Of a DNA stretch of 64,000 bases, positions 44,867-61,585 are shown piece by piece. The notes under the pieces are model-generated. The model was not told where the DNA came from. It saw nothing but the letters and a program-made list of their open reading frames with translations, and ran no database searches. Origin of the DNA: Rhodoplanes sp. Z2-YC6860 (GTDB lineage: Bacteria > Pseudomonadota > Alphaproteobacteria > Rhizobiales > Xanthobacteraceae); assembly GCF_001579845.1 (NCBI RefSeq), contig NZ_CP007440.1, forward strand, positions 2,422,001 to 2,486,000, given 5' to 3'. How positions within the stretch are numbered: position 1 is the stretch's first letter; the number at the start of each line of letters is the position of its first letter. The position numbers were made by a program, and so were the translations under genes.

Positions 44867-46570
44867 TCACTTCTGGTCGTACAAGCCGAAGGTCCAGAGC
44901 GACGCGCCGGCCGGCACGTTCACCAGGTTCGGATCGCCCGCCTTCTGGGCATAGACGCCGCCGATGCCGCTGATGACGGTGATGTACTCCTTGCCGTCCT
45001 TCTCCCAGGCGATCGGCTGGCCGACGATGCCGGACGGGGTCTGGAAGCTCCAGAGCACCTTGCCCGTGTCGCCGTCCAGCGCCTGGAATTCACCGGTCAT
45101 CACGCCTGTGAACACAAGGTTGCTCGCTGTGGTCATCACCGACGAGAAGTTCGGGCTCTTGTAAGGCGTCGCCCACTTGGCCTTGCCGGTCATGGGATCG
45201 ATCGCCTTGAGGAAGCCGCGGACGTTCGGATCCTCGGTAACGGTGGTGCGCTTGACGGTGCCGGGGCCGGACGGCTTGCCGGGGACCAGCTTCGGCGGCT
45301 CGGGCGCCTCGTACGTCATGCCGACATGGATGGTGTTGACGTAGAGCAGCGAGGTCTTCGGGCTGAAGGACGCGTGCTGCCAGTTGGTGCCGCCGGACAC
45401 CGACGGCCACACCGTGACGTTCTTGCCGGCGACCGCGTCGTGGTACACCTGATTGAACTTCGGCCGGCCGGTCTTCAGGTCGACGCCGTCAGCCCAGTTG
45501 ACCTTCTCGAAGGCGTTGGCAGCGAGCAGTTTGCCGTCCTTGGCATCCAGCACATAGAGGAAGCCGTTGCGGTTCGCCTGCATCACGACCTTGCGCGGCT
45601 TGCCGTCGACCTTGACGGTGCCGATGATTGGCGTCTGCACCGCGTCGTAGTCGAACGGGTCGTTCGGCGAGGTCTGGTAATACCAGACCCGTTCGCCGGT
45701 CTTCGGGCGCACCGCAAAGATCGAATTGGTGAAGAGATTGTCGCCTTTGCGGGCGCGGGCGTTCCACGGCGACGGATTACCGATGCCCCAATAGACTAGG
45801 TCGAGCTCCGGATCGTAAGTGCCGGTGACCCAGCTCGAGCCGCCACCGGTCAGGGCGGAGTCGCCCTCCCAGGTGTCGTAGCCGGGCTCGCCTTTGGCCG
45901 GCACGGTATAGGTCCGCCACAGATGCTTGCCGGTCTCCGCGTCGTAGCCTTCGAGGAAGCCGCGATGGCTGTACTCGGCGCCGGCGACGCCGACGACCAC
46001 CACGCCGTTGACGACCAGCGGCGCGCCGGTCATCGCATAGCCGTTCTTGATGTCGACCGGCTCGGGCGAGGCGGTGTTCCAGACCTCCTTGCCGGTCTTG
46101 GCATCGAGCGCGATGATGTGATTGTCCATCAGCGCGCGGATGATCTTGCCGTTGTAGATCGCGGCGCCGCGATTGACGATGCCGCAGCATACCACGCGCA
46201 GCGTCTCCGGCGGATATTCGTGCTCGACGCGCCACATCTGCTTGCCGGTCATCGCATCGACCGCCACGGTCGAATCGTGCGAGTTCACGTAGATCACACC
46301 GTCCTTGAGCAGCGGGAAGGTCTCCGAGCCGCGATTGTCGGTGACCGAGAAGGCCCACTTGGGCACCAGCGTCTTGACGTTGTTCTTGTTGATCTGGGTC
46401 AGCGGGCTGTAGCGGTTGCCCGAATAGCCCATCCCGTAAACCAGGACGTCGCCGGGCGTTTTTTCGTCGTTCTTGAGATCGTCAGCCGACTGCGCAATTG
46501 CGTTGCCAGTCACCGCCGCTGTCAGAGCCAACGCGCTCATCAGCGACGCCGCATGTCTCAGCGTCCTCAT
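44867..46570 (-). CDS. PQQ-dependent alcohol dehydrogenase, predicted lanthanide type (copy 1)
   Basis: A 567-residue periplasmic eight-bladed quinoprotein; signal peptide ends AIAQ (about residue 27). The active site is canonical: vicinal C128-C129 before NRG (R134), metal ligands E199 and N265, PQQ-stacking W247 in GGGSSW, catalytic D307 and, two residues on, D309 (FDYD). MxaF has Ala at the last position; Asp there marks lanthanide-dependent enzymes such as XoxF, ExaF and PedH. It oxidises an alcohol or aldehyde and passes electrons to cytochrome c. GGGAGGG precedes the ATG; the frame is open further upstream without a signal peptide. First gene of a three-gene unit. Confidence 0.93.
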   Translation of the reverse strand: MRTLRHAASLMSALALTAAVTGNAIAQSADDLKNDEKTPGDVLVYGMGYSGNRYSPLTQINKNNVKTLVPKWAFSVTDNRGSETFPLLKDGVIYVNSHDSTVAVDAMTGKQMWRVEHEYPPETLRVVCCGIVNRGAAIYNGKIIRALMDNHIIALDAKTGKEVWNTASPEPVDIKNGYAMTGAPLVVNGVVVVGVAGAEYSHRGFLEGYDAETGKHLWRTYTVPAKGEPGYDTWEGDSALTGGGSSWVTGTYDPELDLVYWGIGNPSPWNARARKGDNLFTNSIFAVRPKTGERVWYYQTSPNDPFDYDAVQTPIIGTVKVDGKPRKVVMQANRNGFLYVLDAKDGKLLAANAFEKVNWADGVDLKTGRPKFNQVYHDAVAGKNVTVWPSVSGGTNWQHASFSPKTSLLYVNTIHVGMTYEAPEPPKLVPGKPSGPGTVKRTTVTEDPNVRGFLKAIDPMTGKAKWATPYKSPNFSSVMTTASNLVFTGVMTGEFQALDGDTGKVLWSFQTPSGIVGQPIAWEKDGKEYITVISGIGGVYAQKAGDPNLVNVPAGASLWTFGLYDQK

Positions 46571-46831
46571 GTTCCCTCCCAATGGCCGCACACATTGCGT
46601 CGCCAAGTTTTGCCACTTCAGTTGAATTGGACCGTGTGGCATCGGTCCGTTCGCATTGCCATCGCGACGCGATTGTGACCCAATAATTCTGCTCATCTGG
46701 AGCGCCTGTAAAGTGGTTGGGCCGAATACTGCATCGCCAAAATCGCGGACCCGATATTCGGTTTCCGCCCACTCGAGGTTGGGCCGCTATCGCAGTGCAG
46801 CGATGGGCTTTCAGCCGATGCTGGAACGCCG

Positions 46832-47233: not shown

Positions 47234-47275
47234 CCTCGCGATAACGCGACAATAAAAATTTTATGGGAGGAGTTG

Positions 47276-48994
47276 ATGAAGTCCATCGCACGGGTTGGAT
47301 TGGCTGGGCAGCTTCGCGCGAGCGTTGCGGCCGTTGTTCTGATGGGGACAGCGGCGTCGGGCGCTGGAGCGGCCGACGTGACTTTCGAGCGGCTGCTCAA
47401 CCCCGAGCCGCAGAACTGGCTGATGAACCACCACGACTACTCGTCGCAACGCTATTCGGCGCTCAACACCATCAACCGCGAGAACGTCAAGAACCTGAAG
47501 CTCGCCTTTTCGGTCGCGCTCGGCGGCACTTCGGCGAACGAATATGTCGAGGCAACGCCGCTGGTCGATGACGGCTTCATGTACATCACCGATGTCTGGG
47601 GCGTGGTCTACAAGATCGACGTCCGTTCGGGCGAGAACGGCCGCATCGTCTGGAAGATGGATCCGGGACAGGAGAAGCCCGATCGCAACCGCGGCGTGGC
47701 GCTGTGGGGCAATCTCGTCATCTCGGTGACCGGCCTCGACGGCCGGGTGATCGCGACCGATCGCGAGACCGGCAAGATCGTCTGGGACAAGAAACTGCTC
47801 GACCAGCAGGGGCTGGAGATCACCGCGGCGCCGCTCGCCTTGAAGGACTCCATCATCATCGGCGCTTCGGGCGGCGACAACGGCACCCGCAACTGGCTCG
47901 CCTCGCTCGATGCCAAGACGGGCGAGCTGCAATGGAAGACCTTCATCGTCCCGGCGCCCGGGGAGCCCGGCAGCGAGACCTGGAAGGACAAGGTCAATGC
48001 CTGGCAGACCGGCGGCGGCGCGCTCTACGTCACCGGTTCCTACGATCCGGCAACCAACCTGACCTACTGGGGCACGGGCAATCCGTCGCCGCGCTACGAC
48101 TCGGCCTACCGGCCGGGCGACAACCTGTTCACCGACTCGTCGGTCGCCTTCAACGCCCAGACCGGCAAGATGGTCTGGTACTTCCAGCACACCCAGAACG
48201 ACAACCGCGACTATGATTCAGCGGGACCGCAGATCATCATCGACGGCAAGTTCAATGGCGAAGACCGCAAGCTCCTGGTTCACGCCAACCGCAACGGCTT
48301 CCACTACACGCTCGACCGCTACAACGGCCAATTCCTGAAGGCGGTGCCATATTCGGCCAAGATCACCTGGACCAAGGGCATCGATCCGAAGACCGGCCGG
48401 GCGGTCGACTACGATCCCAACAAGGACGTGCAGAGCTTCGCCATCGACTGGAAGGGCGGCACCGACGTGCTCAAGGGCGCCTGCCCGGATGTGCATGGCG
48501 GCACCAACTTCTGGCCGCCGGCCTTCAGCCAGAACTCGAAGCTCCTCTACATCGCCGGCAACGAGGGCTGCGCCAACATCACGCCGGACCCGACCGCCCA
48601 CGTGAAGGGCAAGTTCGGCGGCGGCAACTACGTCAACGAGGAGCGCATCACGAGCTCGCTTGCGGTGGTCGATCCGGCGACCGGCGAGTTCAAGATGCGC
48701 AAGGCAATGCCCTATGCCAACCATTCGGGCGTGCTCGCAACCGCGGGCGGCATCGTCGTCACGGCGCTGCTCGACGGCACGATCGCGGCCTATGACGACC
48801 GCAATCTCGATGAACTGTGGAAGATCAATCTCGGCGTGGGTTACGTCGCGCCGCCGATGACCTATTCGGTGAACGGCAAGCAGTACATCGCGATCGCCTC
48901 GGGGATCGGCCCGGTGGCGCGCGCCAAGCTCGCGCGCTCGCCGGAAATGAAGACGCTGTCGAACGCGACGATGCTGTTCGTGTTCGGGCTTTGA
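47276..48994 (+). CDS. PQQ-dependent dehydrogenase, divergent active site (copy 2)
   Basis: A 572-residue exported quinoprotein; signal peptide ends AGAAD (about residue 33). The propeller repeats are regular, and the lanthanide-type catalytic pair is kept (D312-Y-D314). Three usual features differ: the vicinal Cys pair before NRG is replaced by E133-K134; the stacking Trp is Tyr (Y251 in GGGALY); and the metal ligand Glu is Asp (D201 in SGGDNG). N269 is kept. It is closely similar to the protein at 52936-54636, from VTFERLLNPEPQNWLMNH onward. Start: ATG with GGGAGG 5 bases upstream (a TTG directly before is less likely). Substrate unknown. Confidence 0.92.
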   Translation: MKSIARVGLAGQLRASVAAVVLMGTAASGAGAADVTFERLLNPEPQNWLMNHHDYSSQRYSALNTINRENVKNLKLAFSVALGGTSANEYVEATPLVDDGFMYITDVWGVVYKIDVRSGENGRIVWKMDPGQEKPDRNRGVALWGNLVISVTGLDGRVIATDRETGKIVWDKKLLDQQGLEITAAPLALKDSIIIGASGGDNGTRNWLASLDAKTGELQWKTFIVPAPGEPGSETWKDKVNAWQTGGGALYVTGSYDPATNLTYWGTGNPSPRYDSAYRPGDNLFTDSSVAFNAQTGKMVWYFQHTQNDNRDYDSAGPQIIIDGKFNGEDRKLLVHANRNGFHYTLDRYNGQFLKAVPYSAKITWTKGIDPKTGRAVDYDPNKDVQSFAIDWKGGTDVLKGACPDVHGGTNFWPPAFSQNSKLLYIAGNEGCANITPDPTAHVKGKFGGGNYVNEERITSSLAVVDPATGEFKMRKAMPYANHSGVLATAGGIVVTALLDGTIAAYDDRNLDELWKINLGVGYVAPPMTYSVNGKQYIAIASGIGPVARAKLARSPEMKTLSNATMLFVFGL

Positions 48995-49015
48995 GCGATG
49001 TCAGGCGGGCGTGCG

Positions 49016-49525
49016 CTACTGCGCGATCTCATCGCAGGAGCGCCCGCGCTCGCCGAACACCTCGTGGCATTCGGCGCGGGTCACCGGTCCGCGCCGAATG
49101 ATTTTTGCGAGCAGGTAATCGGCCAGCGCCTCGATCTCGCGCTTCTGCAGCGTGGTGCTCGGCGGCAGCCCCGGCGTGCGGGAGCCAAGCTCGGCCTCGG
49201 TCATGCCGTAGCACCGGTTGTCGCTGTAGGCGCCCTCGTCGAAATGCGGCATTGGCGTGCCCGGCACGCCGCAGGAAATCACCTCGATCAGCGATTTCCG
49301 GTCGAGGCTGGAGTTGCGCAGGTTCGCCGCGCCACCGTTCGATTGCGGCTCGCCCGCGCCGTCGCCGGCCCAGCCGTGGCAATAGGAGCACTGCGCCTTG
49401 TCGAGAAACAGCCGCCGTCCGTAGGCAAAGTCATCGTCGGCGAGAAGGCGTGACGGAGCCATGCTGAGCGCGATGGCGAACAGGCTTGCGGTCGTCGCAA
49501 GCAGACCACTGACACGGGATTTCAT
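49016..49525 (-). CDS. Cytochrome c with four extra Cys (module copy A)
   Basis: A 169-residue periplasmic protein: signal peptide (about 1-29), heme site C46-S-Y-C49-H50, likely Met ligand M92 in GTPMPHFD. Four further Cys, C85, C105, C153 and C164, match in position those of the protein at 59177-59719 (C96, C116, C163, C174), so two conserved disulfides are likely. The C-terminus RAECHEVFGERGRSCDE matches the second copy in spacing. It is convergent with the copy 2 dehydrogenase (21-base gap) and its start codon overlaps that of the divergent four-Cys protein. Probable electron acceptor of a nearby dehydrogenase. Confidence 0.88.
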   Translation of the reverse strand: MKSRVSGLLATTASLFAIALSMAPSRLLADDDFAYGRRLFLDKAQCSYCHGWAGDGAGEPQSNGGAANLRNSSLDRKSLIEVISCGVPGTPMPHFDEGAYSDNRCYGMTEAELGSRTPGLPPSTTLQKREIEALADYLLAKIIRRGPVTRAECHEVFGERGRSCDEIAQ

Positions 49526-50252
49526 GCGACCGACACTGCCGCGTTTTCAATTGATGCTCTTCGCCGCATGCGTAGCAGCCGTCGCGCTGATCGGCAACCG
49601 CGTCGCGGCGCAGGAGCGGCCGACACGAACCGAGATCTGGGACCTCACGCTCGGCACCGCGGCGACGGCTTTGCCCGATGCCTTCACCGACTACGCCTGC
49701 GGAACCAATGGCGGTCCGCCGTCAGCACCGCTGAAAGGCTTCAGCGATTTCAAGCGCTGTCGCCCCGAAGCCAGCGGCCTGCGCGAGGTGTACTTCCGCT
49801 ACGACGACGAACTCGAATACTGGGCCAAGGCCAACGACCTGCCGATGGAGGTCGAGAAGTATTCCGGCACCAAGGCTTTCGGCTATCCGGTGGTGGCGTC
49901 GGCGCTGTTTGCCGAGAACGGCATTCTCACAGCGCTGCGCATCATCAGTGATCCGCGCGACACCTCGCGCTCCCGCGAGGATGCCTATTCGCTGCGGAAC
50001 TTCCTGACCGCGCGCTTCGGCCGTGACGGCTGGGATTGCGTCGACGCGCAGCCAGAGGACGGCGAGGGGCCGGTGGGGCGAACCTTCATCAAGCAACGCT
50101 GCTTGAAGTCGGTCCCCAACGGTCCGCGGCTTGATCTCACCACGAATTACTTCCGCAAGCGCGGGCAGCGGCAGTTCGACGCCCGCACGGAGCGCGAAAC
50201 CGAGGGTCAGTTCGAGAGCCTGGTGCGCTTCGAATGGAGCCTTGGTCGTTGA
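49524..50252 (+). CDS. Four-Cys periplasmic protein of unknown family (module copy A)
   Basis: A 242-residue exported protein; signal peptide ends VAAQ (about residue 30), a start 10 codons later is possible. Mature part: C59 in DYACGTNGGPP, C79 in FKRCRPE, C172 in GWDCVDAQPEDGEGPVGRTFIKQRC193, with mixed strands and helices. The Cys pattern and spacing (20 and 21 residues) are the same in the protein at 58408-59166, which I take as its paralogue; no named family is recognised. The start codon overlaps that of the divergent cytochrome by two bases (CATG). Both copies sit next to the same cytochrome type, so a role with it is likely. Confidence 0.82.
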   Translation: MRPTLPRFQLMLFAACVAAVALIGNRVAAQERPTRTEIWDLTLGTAATALPDAFTDYACGTNGGPPSAPLKGFSDFKRCRPEASGLREVYFRYDDELEYWAKANDLPMEVEKYSGTKAFGYPVVASALFAENGILTALRIISDPRDTSRSREDAYSLRNFLTARFGRDGWDCVDAQPEDGEGPVGRTFIKQRCLKSVPNGPRLDLTTNYFRKRGQRQFDARTERETEGQFESLVRFEWSLGR

Positions 50253-50268
50253 TGAGCCGCGCCGACAG

Positions 50269-51564
50269 CTAACCCACGACCCGCAGCGGTTTGGGCGCGG
50301 GCCGGTGCGCCTCGTACAGGCTGCACACCTCGTCGGTGATCGGCGAATGCGCGGCGTGGATGCGCATCATCCAGCTCCGCATGCCTTCCGCGTTATGGTG
50401 CTTGTCGCCTTCGTTCGGCAGGTCGATGCAGGTGTTCTTCGCCGGATCGCGGAAGGTGAACATCGGATCGAGACCTTCCTCGACCTTCTTCATCTCCCGG
50501 CGCAACGCGCGGCGATAGAGCGCGATGCCGCTGTCGGACGCGCCAAGATTTTCAACCGTGCGGTCGGCGATCGCGCCTTGCGTGATCCAGGCCATGATGT
50601 CCTGGGCGTCGACGTTGTCCATCATGAACTCGCCGTTCTCGTCCTTGTACGGCACCTCGTAGGCATAGACCTTGTCGAGCAGATGCTGCGGCACTTTGGC
50701 GGCCTTCGGCGGCACGTAGGCCGTGTACCAGAGGTGCAAGGTGTGCGTGTCGTCCATCGGCACGCGGATTTGAAAAGCGTAGTAGCGGGAATCGACGCGC
50801 TCGTCGCCCGCGCCAACCGAAAGGATGTTGGGGAACACGATCGGATGGCCGACGCGCCAGTCGTCGCAATCTTCGGACTGGCCGGTCAGCAGACGGTGCT
50901 TGGTGATGCCGTATTCGAACTCACGGAAGCCGATCTTCTCGTGGTGTGCACTGACCGCGACCTTCTGGCCCTCGCCCTTCTGCTCCTTGACGAACTCCCA
51001 GGTGTGGCCATGCAGCCATTCGGTGTGCACCGGGTCGAGCGAGTTCTCCATGATCTGCAGCCAGTTGCATGGCACGACGCAGCGGCCGAACATGCGGATG
51101 GTGCCGTCGCGGACGAAGCCGTCGAGGCGCGGCAACAGCGGCTTGGTTTCGGCTGGCCCGAGATAGGCCCAGATCACGCCGCCCATTTCCTCGACCGCGT
51201 AGGCCGGTGTCTTCACCTTGTGACGGAACTGGCTTTTCTCCGGCTCGTTCGGCTGCGCCAGGCACTCGCCGCCGTGCCCGAACTCCCACCCATGATAGGG
51301 ACAGCGGATGCCGTCCTTGGTCGGGATACCATGGGCGAGCGAGGCGCGGCGGTGCGGGCACTGCTCGGTGATGAGGCCGTAGCGGCCCTGGCGGTCCTTG
51401 AACAACACCAGGTCTTCGCCGAGCAGGCGGACCCGCATGTTCCACTTGTTGCCTTCGAGCTCCGAGCCGGCCGCGATCGGGTGCCAGTAGCGCCGCATCA
51501 TGTTGCCGGCCGGTGTCCCGGGCCCGATCCGCGTGAGGAGTTCGTTTTGCTCGGCGGTCAGCAT
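50269..51564 (-). CDS. Rieske non-heme iron oxygenase, alpha subunit (phthalate/PobA type)
   Basis: A 431-residue oxygenase with the Rieske cluster CPHRRASLAHG and CPYHGWEF (about residues 69-95), and the mononuclear iron site NSLDPVHTEWLHGH with two His; the Asp ligand lies in the C-terminal half. It belongs to the two-component group (phthalate 4,5-dioxygenase, phenoxybenzoate dioxygenase, vanillate demethylase-like) that needs a reductase, which is not in the window. AGGGAAA precedes the ATG. It is convergent with the four-Cys protein and divergent from a Bug receptor gene. Confidence 0.9.
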   Translation of the reverse strand: MLTAEQNELLTRIGPGTPAGNMMRRYWHPIAAGSELEGNKWNMRVRLLGEDLVLFKDRQGRYGLITEQCPHRRASLAHGIPTKDGIRCPYHGWEFGHGGECLAQPNEPEKSQFRHKVKTPAYAVEEMGGVIWAYLGPAETKPLLPRLDGFVRDGTIRMFGRCVVPCNWLQIMENSLDPVHTEWLHGHTWEFVKEQKGEGQKVAVSAHHEKIGFREFEYGITKHRLLTGQSEDCDDWRVGHPIVFPNILSVGAGDERVDSRYYAFQIRVPMDDTHTLHLWYTAYVPPKAAKVPQHLLDKVYAYEVPYKDENGEFMMDNVDAQDIMAWITQGAIADRTVENLGASDSGIALYRRALRREMKKVEEGLDPMFTFRDPAKNTCIDLPNEGDKHHNAEGMRSWMMRIHAAHSPITDEVCSLYEAHRPAPKPLRVVG

Positions 51565-51647
51565 CGCTCGGTTTCCCTGTTCAGCCGGTCGCAGGCAGTC
51601 TAGCTTTGGTGCGCCGGAGTGACCAGGGACAGTCGCGGGGACCAGGA

Positions 51648-52715
51648 ATGACGGTAAAGCTCGGCACATCCGGACTTGGGTGCGATTTTGGGTGCGATCT
51701 TGGGGACGGCCTTGGCAGGAGGGCCGCAAGTAATCTGCACCGAAGAGGATTCTTACGTTTGGCTGTGGGGGTTGCGTCGCTCTCGGGAGCGAATGGGCTC
51801 GCGCTCGCGCAGCAGGACTATCCATCGCGGCCGGTTCGCGTGATCGTGCCGTTTGCGCCTGGCGGGCAGACTGACGTGGTCGCCCGCCTGATCGCGCAGC
51901 GGCTGTCCGATAAGCTCGGCAAGCAGTTTTACGTGGAGAATGCAGCGGGCGCCGGCGGCAACATCGGCGTCGGCCGCGCGGCGCAGGCCGCGCCGGACGG
52001 CTACACCATTGTGTTCATCGACTCGATTGCATTCGCTGCCAATCCGAGCCTGTACGCCAAGGTGCCCTATGACCCGGTGGCGGACTTCGATGCGGTCGCG
52101 ATCGGGGCGACCACGATGCAGGTGCTGGCTGTCAATCCCAGTGTGCCCGCCAGGACCGTGCAGGAGCTGGTCGCGCTGATCCGCGCCGAGCCCGGCAAGT
52201 ATAGCTACAGCTCTGCGGGCGTCGGCACCGGCGCGCACCTGACCGGAGAGTTGTTCAAGTCGGTGCTCAAGCTCGACATGCTGCACGTGCCCTATGGCGG
52301 AGGCGGACCAGCGATCGCGGCGGCGATCGCCGGCCACACGCAGATTTCGTTCGGTTCGGCGGCCGCGACCATTTCGCAGCATCAGGAGGGTACGCTCGTC
52401 GCGCTCGCGGTCGGCGGCAAAGCTCGCTTGAAGGGGCTGCCGAATGTGCCGACTTTCCTTGAGGCGGGTTACGACGTCGTTTGCGAGGCGATGGTCGGCC
52501 TGCTCGCGCCGGCCAAGACCCCGAAAGACATCATCGCGCTGCTCAACAAGGAGGTCGCTGCCGTCGTCGCCATGCCGGAGGTGCGGGACCGCCTGGCGAC
52601 GCTTGGCTTCGAGGTGTCGAGCCCGTCCCCGGAGGAGTTCGGTGCGGTTCTCAAAGCCGAGCTGCCGAAGTGGGCAGACGTCATCCGCACCGCGGGCATC
52701 AAGACGGCGCAGTGA
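51648..52715 (+). CDS. Bug/TctC-family receptor with Tat-type signal
   Basis: A 355-residue exported binding protein. From about residue 35 it reads NLHRRGFLRLAVGVASL, a twin-Arg signal, cleaved after LALAQ, then YPSRPVRVIVPFAPGGQTDVVARLIAQRLSDKLGKQFYVENAAGAGGNIGVG, the canonical Bug start. The ATG chosen leaves a long leader before the twin-Arg motif; the true start may be nearer 51730, where AGGAGG occurs but no standard start codon follows. Divergent from the Rieske oxygenase gene (83 bases apart), so it may bind the oxygenase substrate. No TctAB genes near. Confidence 0.88.
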   Translation: MTVKLGTSGLGCDFGCDLGDGLGRRAASNLHRRGFLRLAVGVASLSGANGLALAQQDYPSRPVRVIVPFAPGGQTDVVARLIAQRLSDKLGKQFYVENAAGAGGNIGVGRAAQAAPDGYTIVFIDSIAFAANPSLYAKVPYDPVADFDAVAIGATTMQVLAVNPSVPARTVQELVALIRAEPGKYSYSSAGVGTGAHLTGELFKSVLKLDMLHVPYGGGGPAIAAAIAGHTQISFGSAAATISQHQEGTLVALAVGGKARLKGLPNVPTFLEAGYDVVCEAMVGLLAPAKTPKDIIALLNKEVAAVVAMPEVRDRLATLGFEVSSPSPEEFGAVLKAELPKWADVIRTAGIKTAQ

Positions 52716-52768
52716 GTTGGTGGTGCTTTAGAGCATTTTGCGACTGGTTCGCGTCACGCGCCACAACG

Positions 52769-52916
52769 GCGGTGTCATCGCCGGGCTTGTCCCGGCGATC
52801 CATGAGCGGGCGCGGTTTAAAGCAGTCCTCCGTACGACTTCCGCTGTCGAAGCTGGGTCATGGACCCGCGGGTCAAGCCCGCGGGTGACAGAGTGCCTGT
52901 TGCGCGGACGTGCTTC
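52769..52916. repeat. Dispersed palindromic repeat, copy 1
   Basis: A repeat also present at 58249-58390. It holds ATCGCCGGG / CCCGGCGAT (9-bp stem at 52777-52799) and a CCCGCGGG-TCAA-GCCCGCGGG type stem near 52866-52885, joined by a variable middle. Both copies sit between convergent gene pairs, which fits a two-way transcription stop. Confidence 0.75.
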
Positions 52917-52935
52917 AATTGAGGTGGAAAGTGGC

Positions 52936-54636
52936 CTAAAGCCCGAACACGAAAATCATCGTCGCGTTCGACTGGTTCTTCGCCTCGGGCGCCTTGGTCA
53001 ATTTATTCTTGGCGTTGCGGAACAGACCTGAAGCGATCGCGACATACTGCTTGCCGTCGACCGCGTAGGTCATCGGTGGTGCGTTGAAGCCGGTGCCGAC
53101 GTTGATCTTCCACAACTCCTCCATCGTCGTGTCGTCGAGCGCCACGATGGTTCCATCGAGGAGTGCCGTCATGACGATGCCGCCACCCGTCGCGAGCACG
53201 CCGGCAAAGTTCGGGTAGGGGAAGTCGACACGCTTCTTGGCTTCGCCTGCGACCGGATCGAACATCACGATGCCGCTCGAGATGCGGCCCGGATTGACAT
53301 AGGTGCCGCCGTCGAATTTTCCCTTCACATGGCGCGTGTAGTCCGGCGTGATGTCGGCGCAGCCTTCCAGCTCGGGGATGTAGACGAACTTGGTCTTCGG
53401 GCTGTAGGCCGCCGGCCAGTAATTGGTGCCGCCGGCATTGTCCGGACAGACGTTCCGCGTCGCCTTGTCGTCGTTGACGTTCGCAGGCTCAGCGTAGATC
53501 TGCACGTCGCGGTTCGGATCGTAGTCGATCGGCTTGCCGGTCTTGGGATCGATGCCCTTGGTCCAGGTGATCTTGCCGACATGCTGGCCGGCTTTCAGGA
53601 ACTGGCCGTTGAGACGGTCGAACGAGTAATTGTAGCCGTTGCGGCCGGCATGCGAGACGATCTTGCGATCCTCGCCGTTGACCTTGGCGTCGATCAGGAT
53701 GTGCGTGCCGGTCTCGTCGTAGTCGCGATTGTCGTTCGGCGTGTACTGGAAGTGCCAGTTGAACTTGCCGGTCGTGGCATCGATCGCGAGAAGACTGTTG
53801 GTGTAGAGATTGTCGCCAGGCCGATAAAACGAATCGTAGCCTGGCACCGGATTGCCCGAGCCCCAATAGGTCGTGTTGGTGGCGGGATCGTAGGAGCCGG
53901 TGACGTAGAACGCGCCGCCGCCGGTCTGCCAGGCGTTGTTCTTGTCCTTCCAGGTCTCGCTGCCGGGCTCGCCCGGCGCCGGCACCGAGAAGCGTTTCCA
54001 TTTGACGTCGCCGGTCTTGGGATCGAGCGAGGCGATCCAGTCGCGCACGCCGCGGTCGCCGCCCGACGCGCCGATGATGATCGAATCCTTCAGCGCCAGC
54101 GGCGCGGCGGTCAGCTCGACATCCGGCTGGTCGCGCAGGTTCTTGTCCCAGACGATCTTGCCGGTTTCCTTGTCGGTCGCGATGACGCGGCCGTCATAGG
54201 ACGTCACCGAGATCACCAGATTGCCCCACAGCGCGACGCCGCGATTGCGGTCGAGCCGCTCCTGGCCCGGGTCCATCTTCCAGACGATGCGGCCCGCGGT
54301 GCCGGAGCGCACGTCGATCTTGTAGACCGCGCCCCAATGGTCGGAGATGTACATGAAGCCGTCGTCCACCAGCGGCGTCGCTTCGAGCGCCTCGTTGCCC
54401 GCGCTGCCGCCGATCGCGACCGCGAACAGAAGCTTCATGTTCTTGACGTTGGTCTTGTTGATGGTATCGAGCGGCGAATAGCGCTGCGCGGCGTAGTCGC
54501 GGTGGTTCATCAGCCAGTTCTGCGGCTCGGGATTGAGCAGGCGCTCGTAGGTGACGTCGGCAGCCTGCGCCGCGCCCGCCAAGGCCGTGCAGCACAAAAG
54601 CCCAATCACATGCGCGGAAACGCGAACCTTCACCAT
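52936..54636 (-). CDS. PQQ-dependent dehydrogenase, divergent active site (copy 3)
   Basis: A 566-residue exported quinoprotein; signal peptide ends AQAAD (about residue 27). It shares the features of the copy 2 protein: E126-R127 in place of the vicinal Cys pair, Tyr (Y244 in GGGAFY) for the stacking Trp, Asp (D194 in SGGDRG) for the metal ligand Glu, while N262 and the lanthanide-type pair D305-Y-D307 are kept. GGGAGG precedes the ATG (about 6 bases); the frame is open upstream without a signal. It is alone on this strand between two other transcription units and is divergent from the exported 254-residue protein. Confidence 0.92.
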   Translation of the reverse strand: MVKVRVSAHVIGLLCCTALAGAAQAADVTYERLLNPEPQNWLMNHRDYAAQRYSPLDTINKTNVKNMKLLFAVAIGGSAGNEALEATPLVDDGFMYISDHWGAVYKIDVRSGTAGRIVWKMDPGQERLDRNRGVALWGNLVISVTSYDGRVIATDKETGKIVWDKNLRDQPDVELTAAPLALKDSIIIGASGGDRGVRDWIASLDPKTGDVKWKRFSVPAPGEPGSETWKDKNNAWQTGGGAFYVTGSYDPATNTTYWGSGNPVPGYDSFYRPGDNLYTNSLLAIDATTGKFNWHFQYTPNDNRDYDETGTHILIDAKVNGEDRKIVSHAGRNGYNYSFDRLNGQFLKAGQHVGKITWTKGIDPKTGKPIDYDPNRDVQIYAEPANVNDDKATRNVCPDNAGGTNYWPAAYSPKTKFVYIPELEGCADITPDYTRHVKGKFDGGTYVNPGRISSGIVMFDPVAGEAKKRVDFPYPNFAGVLATGGGIVMTALLDGTIVALDDTTMEELWKINVGTGFNAPPMTYAVDGKQYVAIASGLFRNAKNKLTKAPEAKNQSNATMIFVFGL

Positions 54637-54818: not shown

Positions 54819-55583
54819 ATGATTTCGAATCGTTTGTTATTGGGTGCAGCCATTGCGGTGGTATGCCTTGCAGGCTCCGCGAGCGCGCAGACCTTGGTCG
54901 ATCAGGCCGCCGAATTCCGGATGCAGATCGACTTCGGCGTGCCCGATGCGGCGCTGCGTAAATTCCTGCCGGCCGGCTGGGAGCCGGCGGTCGCGACGCA
55001 GGGACCTGCGAAAGACTGCAACATCCGCGTGATCTTCATCGATCGCGCCGACATCACCAACGGCGAGGGCGCGCCGACCGGCAGCAACCGGATGGTCTAT
55101 CTCGCGGCGCCGGTGAAGCAGACCGGCACCAACAACGCCGGGCAGATGATCATCGCCGGGCTCACCGCCGACGCCAAGGAAGTGCCCGGGCCGTTCGGCA
55201 ATTACGAGCAGGCGACCAGCCACAGCATGGCGCGTTCGCTGAAAGACGACGGCAAGATCACGACCGGGGAGGAGACCTGGTCGTTCGCGGCGGCATCGGG
55301 CGAGCGGCTCGATATCCACATCAAGTACGAGCGCGGCCCGGCCCGCAAAGGCAGCCAGGAGGTGAAGTTCTTCTCGCCGAGCAATCCGAGTTCGTACCAG
55401 ATCTTCAAGGTCGACAGCGGCATCGACATCATGCGCAACGCCACGGTGCCGATCAAAGACCGGGTCACGGAGTTCACCTACAAGATTTCCGGCGGGCGGC
55501 TTTCGGCGATGTTCGACGGCACCGAGAAGGTGCTGAGCCTCGACTCGTTCCATTGGTACAATCGCGCGGTTTATCAGCCGTAG
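54819..55583 (+). CDS. Exported protein of unknown family, acetoacetate-decarboxylase-like start
   Basis: A 254-residue protein with a signal peptide ending SASAQ (about residue 24). The mature N-terminus, FRMQIDFGVPDAALRKFLPAGWEPAVATQG followed by NIRVIFIDRADI, resembles the ligand-shell start of acetoacetate decarboxylase/DUF2071-type proteins, but no catalytic Lys context can be claimed. It is rich in strands. Divergent from the copy 3 PQQ dehydrogenase (182 bases) and 7 bases before a pentapeptide-repeat gene, so the two are probably co-transcribed. Function unknown. Confidence 0.75.
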   Translation: MISNRLLLGAAIAVVCLAGSASAQTLVDQAAEFRMQIDFGVPDAALRKFLPAGWEPAVATQGPAKDCNIRVIFIDRADITNGEGAPTGSNRMVYLAAPVKQTGTNNAGQMIIAGLTADAKEVPGPFGNYEQATSHSMARSLKDDGKITTGEETWSFAAASGERLDIHIKYERGPARKGSQEVKFFSPSNPSSYQIFKVDSGIDIMRNATVPIKDRVTEFTYKISGGRLSAMFDGTEKVLSLDSFHWYNRAVYQP

Positions 55584-55590
55584 CGCTGTG

Positions 55591-56364
55591 ATGATGGTCC
55601 GAGGTCTCATTTCGGGAGTTGTCGGACTGCTGCTGGCCGCAGCGCAGGTGCCAGCCGGCTTGGCTGGTGAGCGCGAGCAGGATTTCCTGAACGGCAAATC
55701 CAAGGCCTGTCCCGATTGCGCGCTCGAGCGGGCGCCGCTCAAGCGTCGCGATCTCAGCGGGGGCGACCTTGCCGGTGCGCATTTGAAGCTTGCTGTGCTG
55801 CACCGGGCGAGGCTTGCGGGGGCGAGCTTCGCCGGGGCCGAACTCGTGAACGCCAATCTCAACAAGAGCGATCTGAAGCGGGCTTCGCTCACGGGTGCGA
55901 AGCTTTCCGGCGCAATGCTTTACGAGGCCGATCTGAGCGCGGCCGATCTCACCGGTGCAGACTTGTCCGATGTGAAGCTGCACAAGGCGCGCCTGGTCGG
56001 TACCAGGCTCGACCGCGCCAATCTCAACCATGCGATCCTGACCGGCGCGCGGCTCGATGACGCTTCGCTTGCCGGTGCCGATCTTCGCGGCGCCAATCTC
56101 ATCGGGGGGCTTCTGCGCGGCACGAACCTCAACGGCGCAAATCTTTCCGAGGCCGGCTTGATCGACGCCGTGCTGCGCGACGCCAGGCTTCGCGGCGCCA
56201 ATCTCATCGGAGCCGACCTCTACGGCGCAGACTTCACCGGCGCTGACCTCTCGGGCGCGGACCTTTCCGACGCCCGCCTGTCCGGCGCCACGTTGACCAA
56301 CGCCAATCTGGAAGGAGCCAGGCTTTCGGGCGCGCTGATGCCCGACGGTACGACGCATGAATGA
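55591..56364 (+). CDS. Exported pentapeptide-repeat protein
   Basis: About 257 residues with a Sec signal peptide (cleavage near LAGERE, residue 26), a CPDC pair near residue 42, then about 40 pentapeptide repeats of the A(N/D)LxG type (residues 48-245), for example ADLTGADLSDVKL and ANLIGGLLRGTNL. The fold is a right-handed quadrilateral helix. Most pentapeptide proteins are cytosolic; export and the CPDC pair are uncommon. Role unknown. GTG/ATG starts occur in series (GTGATGATG); the first ATG is given. Confidence 0.9.
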   Translation: MMVRGLISGVVGLLLAAAQVPAGLAGEREQDFLNGKSKACPDCALERAPLKRRDLSGGDLAGAHLKLAVLHRARLAGASFAGAELVNANLNKSDLKRASLTGAKLSGAMLYEADLSAADLTGADLSDVKLHKARLVGTRLDRANLNHAILTGARLDDASLAGADLRGANLIGGLLRGTNLNGANLSEAGLIDAVLRDARLRGANLIGADLYGADFTGADLSGADLSDARLSGATLTNANLEGARLSGALMPDGTTHE

Positions 56365-56415
56365 AGCATGACCGGCCGAGGGGCCGGGCATGTCCGACAA
56401 CGCAAGGAGGCTTGT

Positions 56416-57696
56416 ATGAAGCGACGCTTGCGACGAACGGGAGAAAACAATCCGGAGCCGGTTGCCGGCAATGGGCTGCTGAACCGTCGTCTGTTACTCG
56501 AAGGCCTCGCGCTCGCCGGCGCGATGGGGGCGACGTCGGCCGCGGCCGAGCCGCTGACGGTGCCGAAATGGTCGAAGGAGCCCGGTGCAGGCTTCGAGCC
56601 CTACGGCAAGCCCTCGCATTTCGAAGACAAGGTGGTGCGCGCGATCCCGCCGGCGCCCAATCCGGTGACGGTCGGCATCGGCACGGCGCGCACGCCGCTG
56701 CATCTGCTCGACGGGATGATGACGCCGTCGGGCCTGCATTTCGAGCGCAGCCATTCCGGCATTCCTGACATCGATCCCGAACAGCATCGCCTCGCCATCC
56801 ACGGCATGGTGAAGCGGCCGCTGGTGTTCACGCTCGAGGCGCTGTCGCGCTATCCGATGGAGTCGCGCATCGCCTTCGTCGAATGCGCCGGCAACAGCCA
56901 GGCGCTCAACACCGCGCAGGCGCAGCCGCTGAACGCGACCGCGATCCACGGCCTGCTGTCGTGCTCGGAATGGACCGGCGTGAAACTCTCGACCCTGCTC
57001 GACGAAGCCGGAGTCGAGCCCGGCGCCGCGTGGGTGCTGGCCGAAGGCGCGGATGCGGCCTCCATGAGCCGGAGCTTCCCGCTCGGCAAGGCGATGGATG
57101 ACGCGCTGGTCTGCCTGTATCAGAACGGCGAGCGTATCCGGCCGTCGAACGGCTATCCGGTTCGTCTGCTGCTGCCCGGCTTCGAGGGCAACATGAACGT
57201 GAAATGGCTGCGGCGCATCAAGGTCACGGCTCAGCCGACGATGACCAAGGACGAGACTTCGAAGTACACGATACTCCTTCAGGACGGCAAAGCCTGGCAG
57301 TTCGTGTTTCCGCTCGAAGTGAAGTCGGTCATCACCCGGCCATCGCCAGGGCTCGGCCTGAAGCAGCCGGGCTTCGCGGAGATTTCGGGGCTGGCATGGT
57401 CCGGCAACGGTCGCATCCGGCAGGTCGAGGTGTCGGCCGATGGCGGGCAGAGCTGGGCCAAGGCTGCGTTGCAGGAGCCGGTGCTGCCCAAGGCGCTGAC
57501 GCGCTTCCGGATGCCCTGGCAATGGAACGGGGGACCTGCGGTGCTGCAAAGCCGCGCCACCGACGAGACCGGCATGGTGCAGCCGAGCCGCGCGCAGTTC
57601 ATCGCCGAGCGCGGACTGCGCGGCATCTATCACTTCAACGCGATCGCGAGCTGGGCGATCGACGAGAAAGGGCAGGCCGCCAATGTTCTGGCTTGA
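56416..57696 (+). CDS. soxC: Sulfite/sulfane dehydrogenase molybdenum subunit, SoxC type
   Basis: A 426-residue molybdopterin oxidoreductase of the sulfite-oxidase fold. A twin-Arg signal (NRRLLLEGLALAGA, about residues 23-36) sends it folded to the periplasm. The molybdenum ligand is C157 in FVECAGNS, with RSHSGIPDIDPEQHRLAIHG before it and GFEGNMNVKWLRRIKV after it, both typical of SoxC. The C-terminal immunoglobulin-like dimer domain is present (GLAWSGNGRIRQVEVSADGG). AGGAGG precedes the ATG. It overlaps its cytochrome gene by 14 bases. SoxC with SoxD oxidises sulfane sulfur on SoxY, but no soxXYZAB genes are in the window, so it may work as a free sulfite dehydrogenase. Confidence 0.9.
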   Translation: MKRRLRRTGENNPEPVAGNGLLNRRLLLEGLALAGAMGATSAAAEPLTVPKWSKEPGAGFEPYGKPSHFEDKVVRAIPPAPNPVTVGIGTARTPLHLLDGMMTPSGLHFERSHSGIPDIDPEQHRLAIHGMVKRPLVFTLEALSRYPMESRIAFVECAGNSQALNTAQAQPLNATAIHGLLSCSEWTGVKLSTLLDEAGVEPGAAWVLAEGADAASMSRSFPLGKAMDDALVCLYQNGERIRPSNGYPVRLLLPGFEGNMNVKWLRRIKVTAQPTMTKDETSKYTILLQDGKAWQFVFPLEVKSVITRPSPGLGLKQPGFAEISGLAWSGNGRIRQVEVSADGGQSWAKAALQEPVLPKALTRFRMPWQWNGGPAVLQSRATDETGMVQPSRAQFIAERGLRGIYHFNAIASWAIDEKGQAANVLA

Positions 57697-58213
57697 ACGC
57701 TTTGCATGTGCGGCGTTGCTTTGCGCGGCCACAGCCGCATCGGCGGCCGACGTGCCGCAACTCGGTCAGGCCGCGACGCCCGCCGATCTTGCCGCGTGGG
57801 ACATCAGCATCGCGCCGGATGGCGCAGGCTTGCCGCCGGGCAAAGGGACATCGGCACAGGGTGAGGCCGTCTACGCCAGCAAGTGCCAGGGCTGTCATGG
57901 CGAGAAGGGCGCCGGCAAGCCGAACGACGTGCTGGTCGGCGGCGCGGGCTCGCTTGCGGCCGGGAAGACGCCGGTGAAGACGGTGGGCAGCTACTGGCCT
58001 TACGCCACGACGCTGTTCGACTACATCCGCCGCGCCATGCCCTACAACGAGCCGAAGTCGCTCAGCAACGACGAGGCCTACGCGGTGTCGGCCTATCTCC
58101 TGGCGCTCAACGGCGTGATCGGCGCGGACGATGTGGTCGACGCGCAGTCGCTGCCCAAGGTGCAGATGCCGAATCGCGATGGGTTCGTGCCGTTTCCGCG
58201 GGCGCAGCGTTAG
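57683..58213 (+). CDS. Cytochrome c subunit, SoxD-like
   Basis: A 176-residue periplasmic cytochrome: signal peptide ending SAAD (about residue 22), one heme site C68-Q-G-C71-H72, likely Met ligand in RRAMPYNEPKSL. The pattern WDISIAPDGAGLPPGKGTSAQGEAVYASKCQGCHG is typical of the first domain of SoxD. Classical SoxD has two heme domains; this short form is common with stand-alone SoxC. It overlaps soxC by 14 bases, so the two are translated together and form the complex. Confidence 0.9.
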   Translation: MFWLERFACAALLCAATAASAADVPQLGQAATPADLAAWDISIAPDGAGLPPGKGTSAQGEAVYASKCQGCHGEKGAGKPNDVLVGGAGSLAAGKTPVKTVGSYWPYATTLFDYIRRAMPYNEPKSLSNDEAYAVSAYLLALNGVIGADDVVDAQSLPKVQMPNRDGFVPFPRAQR

Positions 58214-58407: not shown

Positions 58408-59166
58408 CTAGCGCGGCGTGGCAGACGCCTGCGGCTCGGGCTTCCGCAGCGCCGGGTCGAACACCTCGAAGCGGGTCCAGCTCTCGTACTGGCCCGGCCG
58501 GTACTCGCCATTCGCATCGGTGCCGGTCTGGCCGGGCTTGCGCAGGAAGTGCGCCTCGACGGTAAGCCAGCGTTCGGGCGTCACCTTCTCGCAGCGCTGC
58601 TTGACGAACACGCCGCCGACCGGGGTCTCGCCCTCGGCGGCGGGAAAGTCGGTGCAATTCCAATTGCCCGGGCCATAGCGGTTGATGACGGCGAGCCGCA
58701 GCATATGCGCCATGCGGCGCTCGAGCTCCGAACCGCGCGGATCGGTGATGAAGCGGAGGCCTTTGAGGGTGCCGCCGTCGTCGAACAGTGCCGACAGAAT
58801 CACCGGATGGCCGGCGACCCGTGTCGAGCTTTTCTGGTCGGCATAGCGGTCGTCGTCGATGGCGCGGCCGATATATTCCTGCTCGTCCTCGAAGCGGACA
58901 TTGACTTCGTGCAAACCGTTCGGCTCCGCCCGGCATTTCATGTAGCCGGTCCAGTCGTCGAGCTTCTGCCGCGCCGGCCCGCCATTGCTGCCGCAGGCGA
59001 ACTCGCTGAAGCCGTCGGTGGTCATGGTCTGGGCTTTGAGGCCGAGCTTCAGCCCGCGGATCTCGCCGGGGTCGCCTTTGTTTTGCGACAGAGCAGGATG
59101 CGCAGCGAACGCCAAGATAGCCGCCGCGCAGACGACCCTCAACGTGGCGCGGACGCTTGGCGTCAT
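58408..59166 (-). CDS. Four-Cys periplasmic protein of unknown family (module copy B)
   Basis: A 252-residue exported protein; signal peptide ends ALSQ (about residue 28). C58 in EFACGSNGGPA, C78 in YMKCRAE, C171 in NWNCTDF and C192 in VFVKQRCEK match the Cys of the protein at 49524-50252 in both context and spacing. The paralogues also share the EVxxRFxDExEY and GHPVxxSALF-like segments. It is the last gene of a unit with the copy 4 dehydrogenase and the second four-extra-Cys cytochrome, 10 bases after the latter. A periplasmic partner or assembly protein for the cytochrome is likely; no family is recognised. Confidence 0.82.
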   Translation of the reverse strand: MTPSVRATLRVVCAAAILAFAAHPALSQNKGDPGEIRGLKLGLKAQTMTTDGFSEFACGSNGGPARQKLDDWTGYMKCRAEPNGLHEVNVRFEDEQEYIGRAIDDDRYADQKSSTRVAGHPVILSALFDDGGTLKGLRFITDPRGSELERRMAHMLRLAVINRYGPGNWNCTDFPAAEGETPVGGVFVKQRCEKVTPERWLTVEAHFLRKPGQTGTDANGEYRPGQYESWTRFEVFDPALRKPEPQASATPR

Positions 59167-59176
59167 GCCCAGCTCG

Positions 59177-59719
59177 TCACTTCGGCTTCATCGGATCGCA
59201 TTGCTTGGTGTCCTTGCCCCAGAAGTCGACGCAATCTTCATAGGTCGCAGGACCACGGCCGACCACGCGGGCGAACAGATATTTCACCACCGCGTCGACC
59301 TCGCGCTTCTGCAACGATTCCACCGCCATCGGCGGCATGTCCTTGCCGAGATCGGCGCGCGTGTAATCGTAACAACGCTTGTCGGTGTAGGCACGCTCGT
59401 CGTGGTACGGCATGCCGGTGGTTGGCCGGCCGCACCGGATCACCTCGGCGACCTGCTCTGGCGTGAGCTGCGTCTTGCGCAGCGATAGCGCGAGTCCGCC
59501 ATAGCCCTGATCGCCGCCGCCGTCCCATTTGTGGCAGTACTGGCACTCCGCCTTGACCTTGAATATCTCCTTGCCGAACTCGATGGTGCGCAGCTCTTCC
59601 GCCGAAAGTTTCTCCTGTGCGTGGCTGGGGGCGATCGACAGAGATACAAAGACGACGAATAGCCACGTCCAAGCCTGGAGCGAAGACACCAGACCGAGAC
59701 GAGTGCCGGAACGATGCAT
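59177..59719 (-). CDS. Cytochrome c with four extra Cys (module copy B)
   Basis: A 180-residue periplasmic protein: a signal/anchor segment (about 16-35, cleavage after SHAQ), heme site C59-Q-Y-C62-H63, likely Met ligand M103 in TTGMPYHD. Extra Cys C96, C116, C163 and C174 match those of the protein at 49016-49525. The segment LQKREVDAVVKYLFARVVGRGPATYEDC matches LQKREIEALADYLLAKIIRRGPVTRAEC there. It lies 81 bases downstream of the copy 4 PQQ dehydrogenase, with a hairpin in between, and is its probable electron acceptor. Confidence 0.9.
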   Translation of the reverse strand: MHRSGTRLGLVSSLQAWTWLFVVFVSLSIAPSHAQEKLSAEELRTIEFGKEIFKVKAECQYCHKWDGGGDQGYGGLALSLRKTQLTPEQVAEVIRCGRPTTGMPYHDERAYTDKRCYDYTRADLGKDMPPMAVESLQKREVDAVVKYLFARVVGRGPATYEDCVDFWGKDTKQCDPMKPK

Positions 59720-59800: not shown

Positions 59801-61585
59801 CTAGAGGCCGAACACGTAAAGCATCGAAGCCGGTGCGGTGTTCCTCAGCTCCGGCGAATTCTGCATGATGGCGAGGTTCTGACGGGAGCCCGCCAGAACT
59901 GCGATGTACTGCTTGCCGTTGACCGAATAGCTGACCGGCGGCGCGTTGATGCCGGTGCCGACGCTGAAGCTCCAGACCTCCTTCAGGGTCTTGGCGTCAT
60001 GGGCGGTCAGGGTGCCGTCGGCATGGCCGATGAACACCAGGCCGCCGGCGGTCGCAAGCGCGCCGCTGTAATTCGGATATTCGAGCTTCAGCGCCGCCTT
60101 GGTCTCGCCGGTCGCTGGGTCGACCGCCTTCAAACTGCCGTAGAGCCGCTCGTTGGTCTTCGTGCCGCCGCCGGCAAAACGCTCGCGCCATTTGGTCGGG
60201 CCGCCCTGGTCCTCCATGTCCTGCTGCACTTTGTTCTCGAGCGAATTGCAGCCCTCGATGGCGGGGATGTAGAGGAGCTGGAGATCCGGATTGTAGGCCG
60301 TCGGCTCCCAGTTCTTGCCTCCGACGTGCGCCGGGCAGAGCCGTGTCGCAGCCTTGCCGCGCCCTGGAGCCGTGCCCGCCACGTAGGTTTGCACGTCCTT
60401 GGTCGGATCGTAGCTCAGCGGCCGGCCGGTCTTCGGATCGAGCCCGGTCGTCCAGTTGAGCTGGTCGACAAATTGCTTGCCGGCGACGAACGAGCCGTTG
60501 GTGCGGTCGAGCGCGTAGTAGAAGCCGTTGCGCGCGGCATGCACCACGAGCTTGCGGTCCTGGCCATTGACCTTGATGTTGATAATCGGGTGCTCGGCAA
60601 TCTCGTCAAAGTCGTAAGGATCATTCGGCGTGTATTGGTAGCCCCACTTGATCTTGCCGTCCTGCGGGCTCAGCGCGAGCACACTCGCCGCCCATTTGTT
60701 GTCGCCCGGGCGATATTCGGGATCCCAGTCCGGGCCGGCATTGCCGATGCCCTGGTAGAACGTGTCGCTCTCCGCATCGTAGGTCGCGGTCTCCCAGACC
60801 GAGCCGCCACCGTGCTTCCAGCGGTCTTTGCCGTCCTTCCAGGTCTCGTTGCCGGGCTCGCCCGCGCCGGGAATGGTGTAGGTGCGCCAGACCTGCTTGC
60901 CGGTGTTGAGGTCGGTGCCGTCGATCCAGCCACGGACGCCAAACTCGCCGCCGGCGACGCCAACGATGGCGATATCGCGGATGACCAGCGGCGCAAGCGT
61001 GATGGTTTCGGCCACCGCTGGGTCGGCGACCTTGCGCTCCCAGATCATCTCGCCGGTCGCCTTGTTGATCGCGAACAGCCGGCCGTCGAGCGAGATCGAG
61101 ATCACCTTGTCCTTCCACAGCGCCACGCCGCGATTGTTGACGCCGCAGCAGGCGACATCGCCGGCCCAGGCGCGATCGACCGCCGGGTCGAATTTCCAGC
61201 GAATTTTGCCGCGCGTTCCGCTGGTGGCGTCGATGGCATAGACCGAGCCCCAGCCGTCGGTGACATAGATGATGCCGTCTTCGACCAGCGGCGTGCCTTC
61301 GAGATTGCCGAACTTGTAGCGCCCGCCGCTTTCGAAGCCGCCGAGCGCCACGCCGAACGCCATCCTCAGGTTCTTCACGTTGTCGGTGTTGATGTCTTTC
61401 AGCGCTGAGAAGCGGTGGCCCTGGTAGTTGCCGTGATGCAGCAGCCAGTTCTGCGGCTCGTTGGCGACATTCAGCGCGCGCTCTTGCGTCATGTCGGCGG
61501 CGTTCGCTGGCGACAAGGCGGACGTCAGAAATGTCGATGAAAGAAATGCGCACGCCAGCGCGCACACGAGATGTGTGGGTTTCAT
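59801..61585 (-). CDS. PQQ-dependent alcohol dehydrogenase, predicted lanthanide type (copy 4)
   Basis: A 594-residue exported quinoprotein; signal peptide ends NANAAD (about residue 30). The canonical active site is complete: vicinal C146-C147 before NRG (R152), metal ligands E214 (AGGEFG) and N282, stacking W264 in GGGSVW, catalytic D325 with the lanthanide-type D327 (YDFD). It is the longest of the four and heads the unit with the module-B cytochrome and four-Cys protein. Substrate unknown; the sequence is not a close match to XoxF as I remember it. The 201 bases upstream hold no gene and should contain its promoter. Confidence 0.93.
   Translation of the reverse strand: MKPTHLVCALACAFLSSTFLTSALSPANAADMTQERALNVANEPQNWLLHHGNYQGHRFSALKDINTDNVKNLRMAFGVALGGFESGGRYKFGNLEGTPLVEDGIIYVTDGWGSVYAIDATSGTRGKIRWKFDPAVDRAWAGDVACCGVNNRGVALWKDKVISISLDGRLFAINKATGEMIWERKVADPAVAETITLAPLVIRDIAIVGVAGGEFGVRGWIDGTDLNTGKQVWRTYTIPGAGEPGNETWKDGKDRWKHGGGSVWETATYDAESDTFYQGIGNAGPDWDPEYRPGDNKWAASVLALSPQDGKIKWGYQYTPNDPYDFDEIAEHPIINIKVNGQDRKLVVHAARNGFYYALDRTNGSFVAGKQFVDQLNWTTGLDPKTGRPLSYDPTKDVQTYVAGTAPGRGKAATRLCPAHVGGKNWEPTAYNPDLQLLYIPAIEGCNSLENKVQQDMEDQGGPTKWRERFAGGGTKTNERLYGSLKAVDPATGETKAALKLEYPNYSGALATAGGLVFIGHADGTLTAHDAKTLKEVWSFSVGTGINAPPVSYSVNGKQYIAVLAGSRQNLAIMQNSPELRNTAPASMLYVFGL

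Follow-up and report, generated by a model that had tools for sequence, protein, structure and literature searches.

Quinoprotein genes at the locus

The stretch analysed here (the window) comprises 64,000 nucleotides of Rhodoplanes sp. Z2-YC6860 (RefSeq assembly GCF_001579845.1, contig NZ_CP007440.1, positions 2,422,001 to 2,486,000), and was found to carry genes for four pyrroloquinoline quinone (PQQ) propeller proteins, C, A, B and D, within 17 kb. Two of these, protein A (47276..48994, + strand) and protein B (52936..54636, − strand), are quinoproteins without the disulfide loop and belong to a group designated clade I, as established from their open reading frames, Pfam matches, alignment and a phylogenetic tree. 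Open frames for both are present, as a preliminary description of this DNA had reported. The ATG start of A at 47276 is preceded by GGAGGA, and its residues are numbered with the TTG at 47273 as residue 1. B starts with the ATG at 54636, followed by a signal-peptide-like stretch, and a longer frame opens with a GTG at 54744. A and B share 68% identity. Paralogue C (44867-46696, − strand) is a PQQ propeller with Cys-Cys, Glu and Trp, and paralogue D (59801..61585, − strand), in which all three are likewise present, provides a natural control.

Active-site residues and the deleted loop

The roles at PQQ of the stacking Trp, the metal-ligand Glu and the Cys-Cys pair are presumed here via the MxaF numbering; the columns were taken from the alignments. 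Both A and B lack the Cys-Cys pair. Asp202 of A (codon 47876..47878, + strand) and Asp194 of B (codon 54055..54057, − strand) stand where the Cys-Cys paralogues carry Glu, and Tyr252 of A (codon 48026..48028, + strand) and Tyr244 of B (codon 53905..53907, − strand) stand where they carry Trp. Residues retained in A and B, respectively, are Asn270 and Asn262, the Asp-X-Asp motif (Asp313-Tyr-Asp315 in A, codons 48209..48217, + strand; Asp305-X-Asp307 in B), Arg340 and Arg332, and Asn412 and Asn405. The alignments thus bear out what had been described from the sequence, namely the absence of Cys-Cys, the two replacements, and the retention of Asp-X-Asp, the Asn ligand and the Arg. Alignment of A with PedH (PDB 6zcv) by phmmer pairs SGGD with AGGE, GGALY with GAAPW, DYD with DFD, and NRNG with DRNG.

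Compared with D, A is 9 residues shorter, the gap lying between Pro136 and Asp137: DPGQEKP, the nine-residue gap and DRNRG of A align with DPAVDRAWAGDVACCGVNNRG of D, and the gap removes the Cys-Cys pair. The site of the deletion is the stretch E134-R140 of A (EKPDRNR, 47672..47692, + strand), in which E134-K135 align with the Asp-Arg/His that precedes the lost loop; the E134 column is occupied by Q in 12, E in 6 and K in 6 of the 24 clade I rows. The preliminary description had Glu-Lys or Glu-Arg substituting for Cys-Cys, since counting back from xRG places Glu-Lys at the cysteine position; the alignments disagree, and this substitution is ruled out because the loop is missing altogether and the residue at E134 varies. 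Arg138 (codon 47684-47686, + strand), inside the same stretch and beside the deletion, occurs in 24/24 clade I rows, in 2/21 rows of the sister clade II and in none of the 24 Cys-Cys rows, and is, as judged from the alignment, a better signature than Glu-Lys.

Clades I and II

A contig scan gave 48 loci which, together with loci from whole-genome searches, amounted to 109 distinct quinoproteins, and a tree was calculated from the best 85 of the 109 rows after removal of the trait columns. Stretches shorter than 450 aa (or 400 aa in the set of 135 rows described below) were dropped before counting, among them the frame-broken L024 and two fragments, L055 and L058 (L and G numbers denote loci and genomes). 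Clade I, which includes A and B, has 24 rows with a Shimodaira-Hasegawa-like approximate likelihood ratio test (SH-aLRT) support of 97; clade II, its sister, has 21 rows with a support of 100, and the two are joined with a support of 100. The Cys-Cys pair is found in 0/24 clade I rows, while Arg138, Arg140, Asp202, Tyr252, Asn270, Asp313, Asp315, Arg340 and Asn412 are each invariant (24/24). Ser199 is present in all 24 clade I rows, 7/21 clade II rows and 0/24 Cys-Cys rows. The Tyr275 column, which we take to be that of the substrate-cavity residue Trp265 of MxaF, holds Tyr in 23/24 clade I rows, Phe in 16/21 clade II rows and Trp in 22/24 Cys-Cys rows.

Clade II quinoproteins (e.g. L110, L160 and L162) resemble A and B in the deleted loop, in Asp at the metal-ligand column (20/21) and in Asp-X-Asp (21/21), and at some loci also in the gene module, but differ in that Trp is retained in 20/21 and Arg138 is missing from 19/21. 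In the Cys-Cys rows of the same tree, Cys-Cys, Glu and Trp are present in 24/24. The proposal of a coherent active-site type therefore stands, given the supported clade and its invariant residues. A and B sit in separate subgroups of clade I, so that their duplication looks old. The altered site was, though, inherited by both from a common ancestor, and they are not the two independent cases for which they had been taken.

Order of the changes

The wider set consists of 135 quinoproteins. The 48 with Cys-Cys carry Trp in 48 and Glu in 47; the 87 without it, one of which (L156_3-1364) is truncated ahead of the loop, carry Asp (56), Glu (29), Gly (1) or Gln (1). Tyr is found in 26 rows, all 26 of which lack Cys-Cys and have Asp. 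The fewest changes on the 135-row tree were 4 for Cys-Cys, 5 for Asp and 2 for Tyr, and Tyr was gained at least twice, in clade I and in L088, each time in proteins that lack the loop and have Asp. As all Tyr rows are loop-less with Asp, a stepwise order is likely, in which loop loss and Asp would have come first and Tyr later. The changes were not one event, because clade II is loop-less with Asp yet keeps Trp, and the "three linked changes" of the preliminary description did not gain statistical support: the independent-pairs test on the 135-row tree yielded too few pairs (3-5) and no median linkage signal, with no pair in which Asp and Tyr change together. The nesting of the states suggests dependence, short of proof.

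Companion genes

Next to A lies a gene for a c-type cytochrome with a CSYCH haem motif (49016..49525, − strand), the likely electron acceptor, and a gene for an exported-looking protein of ~250 aa with four invariant cysteines, X1 (49461..50252, + strand). The corresponding pair beside D comprises X2 (58408..59166, − strand), a paralogue 40% identical to X1, and a c-type cytochrome with CQYCH (59177..59719, − strand), 43% identical to that of A. Many of the loci have a flank of 1.5 kb or less, and the following counts of companions are therefore lower bounds. A homologue of the cytochrome or of X occurs within 3 kb in 10/25 clade I rows of the 135-row set (X in 3, cytochrome in 10), 5/22 clade II rows, 20/24 Cys-Cys rows of the group and 7/12 other loop-less rows, and in 0/24 distant Cys-Cys rows and 2/28 distant rows without Cys-Cys, both of the latter beside a Cys-Cys gene of the group. 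The cytochrome homologue is directly downstream on the same strand at 7/7 near-full-length betaproteobacterial clade I loci (L015, L016, L019, L020, L027, L054 and L129/L163); at L011 and L018 it is within 3 kb with other genes intervening.

X was found in 11 of 198 genomes of the family, each of which belongs to the 19 genomes having this quinoprotein group, and 15 of its 18 places are within 1 kb of a quinoprotein gene of the group (G030 and G590, which share contig numbers and coordinates, were counted as one assembly). X is a companion of this quinoprotein group, Cys-Cys relatives included. Its four cysteines are invariant in 11 aligned members, among which there was no NCBIfam match and one weak Pfam match (DUF6965, in 1/11); no relative was found in PDB by sequence, and none by fold under E 0.001 (mean predicted local distance difference test score, pLDDT, of the model 79). 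There is accordingly no sign of X being XoxJ-like.

Divergent from B is the gene for an exported-looking protein Y (54819..55583, + strand), which gave no Pfam or NCBIfam match and no significant PDB relative, followed by one for a pentapeptide-repeat protein (55588..56364, + strand). The pentapeptide protein recurs in clusters of G084, G232, G590 and G491, and Y in the first three of these. Twenty neighbour proteins of clade I genes belong to mixed families (UbiD, OYE, TauD, sulfatase, thiolase and others), and gave no pointer to the substrate. Between A and B (50269-51825) there is a Rieske oxygenase with a LigXa/VanA-like C-terminal part, not recurrent in the clade I loci examined. The segment between B and D (56368-58213) encodes a molybdopterin protein of the sulfite-oxidase type, accompanied by a c-type cytochrome of its own, and the same pair is found near the clade I gene of L022.

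Function of A and B

Both proteins matched the PQQ propeller in Pfam (E 1e-58 for A, 2.9e-57 for B), passing the PF01011 gathering cut-off of 26.7 with 199.9 and 195.1 bits. The AlphaFold2 model of A has a mean pLDDT of 88.5, with 91 for the loop block 131-140 and 95 for the Tyr block 251-260, and its best Foldseek match, along the full length, was PedH 6zcv (E 6.9e-51, template modelling score 0.85). PqqE, which acts in PQQ synthesis, was found in the source genome with a score above the cut-off. A and B probably work as exported PQQ-dependent dehydrogenases with the methanol/ethanol-dehydrogenase fold, having lost the loop and exchanged Glu for Asp and Trp for Tyr. Among the features of XoxF/PedH-type enzymes, the second Asp of Asp-X-Asp is present throughout clade I (Asp315, 24/24), whereas Cys-Cys (0/24), the metal Glu (Asp, 24/24) and the stacking Trp (Tyr, 24/24) are absent. 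A and B probably use a lanthanide.

In such an enzyme, Arg140 and Arg340 would hold PQQ at the axis of the propeller, where it would chelate a metal, most likely a lanthanide, that has Asp202, Asn270 and the Asp313-X-Asp315 pair as protein ligands. One face of PQQ would be packed against Tyr252, and the other face, opened by the loss of the loop, may be partly covered by Arg138. With Asp313 as the base, an alcohol-type substrate too large or too polar for the usual pocket would be oxidised, and electrons would pass without a disulfide to a periplasmic c-type cytochrome, e.g. the one beside A.

Several observations weigh against this proposal. A and B score 459.8 and 454.8 bits with TIGR03075 (PQQ-dependent dehydrogenase, methanol/ethanol family), just below the cut-off of 480.05, which C (604.4) and D (540.6) exceed. 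The cytochrome of this kind nearest to B is that beside A, 3.4 kb off, and at L012, L014, L017, L021, L022, L023, L025, L026 and L034, each with ~8 kb downstream, no cytochrome or X was found within 3 kb. A clade member in G589 (L024/L108) is interrupted by a TAA, and L055, which is betaproteobacterial and 56% identical, matches residues 1-119 only, though its contig continues.

A more far-reaching version is possible, if doubtful: that clade I has a distinct PQQ site, loop-less, with Asp and Tyr and with Arg138 and Tyr275 in its roof and channel, which would use a lanthanide and transfer electrons without a disulfide to a cytochrome homologous to that of the Cys-Cys enzymes, X being a new four-cysteine periplasmic family without known fold that matures or serves the enzyme. 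If this is true, the vicinal disulfide would be dispensable for electron transfer from quinoprotein to cytochrome.

It is unlikely that A and B are "empty" propellers, devoid of PQQ, whose fold was kept for binding, sensing or as a scaffold. The residues stacking on either face and one of the metal ligands are altered, Arg138 could occupy the vacated space, and the NCBIfam acido-empty-quinoprotein model (TIGR04528, group A) matches A and B at 387.1 and 363.9 bits; these values, however, are far under the cut-off of 650 and similar to those of the Cys-Cys paralogues C (433) and D (377). Moreover, Arg140, Asn270, Asp313, Asp315, Arg340 and Asn412 are invariant in clade I, and a non-enzyme need not keep the base Asp313. 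The haem c protein found near 10/25 clade I genes also speaks for an enzyme.

Improbable, too, is an active PQQ enzyme that depends on calcium or another metal, with a sugar- or polyol-type site, nearer in behaviour to the membrane glucose dehydrogenase, which is likewise not known to carry the Cys-Cys ring. For it, Asp reaches less far than Glu as a metal ligand, one clade I locus (L025) has an SMP-30/gluconolactonase-like neighbour, and the membrane glucose/quinate dehydrogenase model TIGR03074 matches A at 135.1 and B at 129 bits, but this is far under the cut-off of 832.65 and C and D match better (180 and 166). The lanthanide-type second Asp of every clade I row, the lanthanide enzyme PedH as the best fold match and the mixed families of the other neighbours likewise disagree with it. 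This reading and the lanthanide one overlap, because PMC11996626, in its available text, makes the case for possible lanthanide use by membrane glucose dehydrogenase too.

That A and B are relics heading to decay, to which the two broken genes and the many copies in several metagenome-assembled genomes (MAGs) could be taken to point, is scarcely credible and, as the preliminary description had held, is ruled out by the low ratios of nonsynonymous to synonymous substitution (0.037-0.373 in 12 clade I pairs, Nei-Gojobori method, own script, the A-B pair being the highest) and by the invariant residues, and no stop occurs within the matched stretch of the 24 clade I rows used; the clade support and the confident model of A agree with this.

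Relation to known systems

PedH/ExaF (PDB 6zcv and 6zcw) is the best match of A by sequence (E 9.8e-84, ~33% identity) and by fold, and shares with A and B the eight-bladed propeller, Asp-X-Asp and the cofactor Asn and Arg; unlike them, it has Cys-Cys, Glu and Trp. XoxF shares Asp-X-Asp, the propeller fold and a c-type cytochrome partner, which for A and B would follow from gene position, whereas A and B lack Cys-Cys and have Asp for Glu and Tyr for Trp. Paralogue D, 46% identical to A, and its Cys-Cys relatives have the same companions, cytochrome c and X, but differ in the presence of Cys-Cys, Glu and Trp.

Blake reportedly described the vicinal disulfide on PQQ in 1994. That the ring aids the passage of electrons to the cytochrome is stated in the available text of PMC8546591 and PMC12997753, both of which cite Mennenga (2009), and its role is still argued. 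The source genome holds the loop-less A and B and the loop-bearing D, with A and D each beside a homologous cytochrome and X, so that A versus D is a natural experiment that bears on whether electron transfer requires the disulfide. Should A and B be active with the neighbouring cytochrome, the electron-transfer view of the disulfide needs limits; should they be slow or use another acceptor, it is upheld.

Loss of Cys-Cys with Asp-Tyr-Asp retained is already known from Thaumarchaea: according to the available text of PMC7300363, the quinoproteins of the marine HMT Thaumarchaea all lack Cys-Cys and four have Asp-Tyr-Asp, a finding that the accessible part of PMC11845868 repeats, calling the function unknown. 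These proteins differ from A and B in being archaeal, the available text does not state which residues they have at the Trp/Tyr and Glu/Asp columns, and the likeness is drawn from their published description rather than from sequence. The suggestion that the site of A and B is undescribed therefore fails for the absence of Cys-Cys, which is also common (87/135), but stands for Tyr together with Asp in a quinoprotein without Cys-Cys, no such combination being found in the accessible parts of the open-access literature searched. In ocean PQQ dehydrogenases, lanthanide use was read from Asp-X-Asp (PMC11996626, whose available text does not contain the words cysteine, disulfide or tryptophan); lanthanide screens using this motif alone take in sites with other ligands altered. 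X, for its part, emerges as a protein family without a name that goes with this quinoprotein group.

Distribution

The source genome is a single contig of 8,193,889 bases with four more quinoprotein genes elsewhere: L004 lacks Cys-Cys and has Asp and Trp, L005 and L007 lack Cys-Cys and have Glu and Trp, and L008 has Cys-Cys. Loss of Cys-Cys alone is thus not special in this genome, as 3/4 of its other quinoproteins also lack it. At L164 of the same genome (7708000-7724000), a quinoprotein of the group without Cys-Cys, with Asp and Trp, has a cytochrome c of its own beside it, along with X and a pentapeptide protein.

Clade I is rare. Scores at its level were obtained in 3/296 genomes of the family; at E 1e-200 the order search (n=297) found the source genome and one clade II genome, and the phylum search (n=398) the source genome alone. 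Because these three surveys scored no more than 3 or 4 candidates in each genome, copies per genome are lower bounds. In the genus, protein A at E 1e-100 found 1/11 genomes, and one betaproteobacterial family gave 7/74. None of 305 matched plasmid records reached 60% identity. Besides the source genome, the named clade I members are MAGs titled Xanthobacteraceae, Rhizobiales, Hyphomicrobiales and betaproteobacteria. The quinoprotein of L019, from a record titled Bordetella parapertussis, groups with environmental betaproteobacterial MAGs, and the title may be a mislabel.

The soil MAG G590 (Centralia_MAG_73; parts of it are L110-L113, L115-L117, L124, L126 and L127) has 22 quinoproteins of the wider group that match with E 1e-140 or better. 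Of these, 14 score at the level of clade I/II, and several are in tandem, a large lineage-specific expansion. TctC genes that neighbour quinoprotein genes mean little, because these genomes are so rich in TctC: the source genome has 462 candidate TctC solute-binding genes, of which the 150 scored were all above the cut-off, and 434 TctC genes in 8.2 Mb are given for Rhodoplanes sp. Z2-YC6860 in the available text of PMC5994714.

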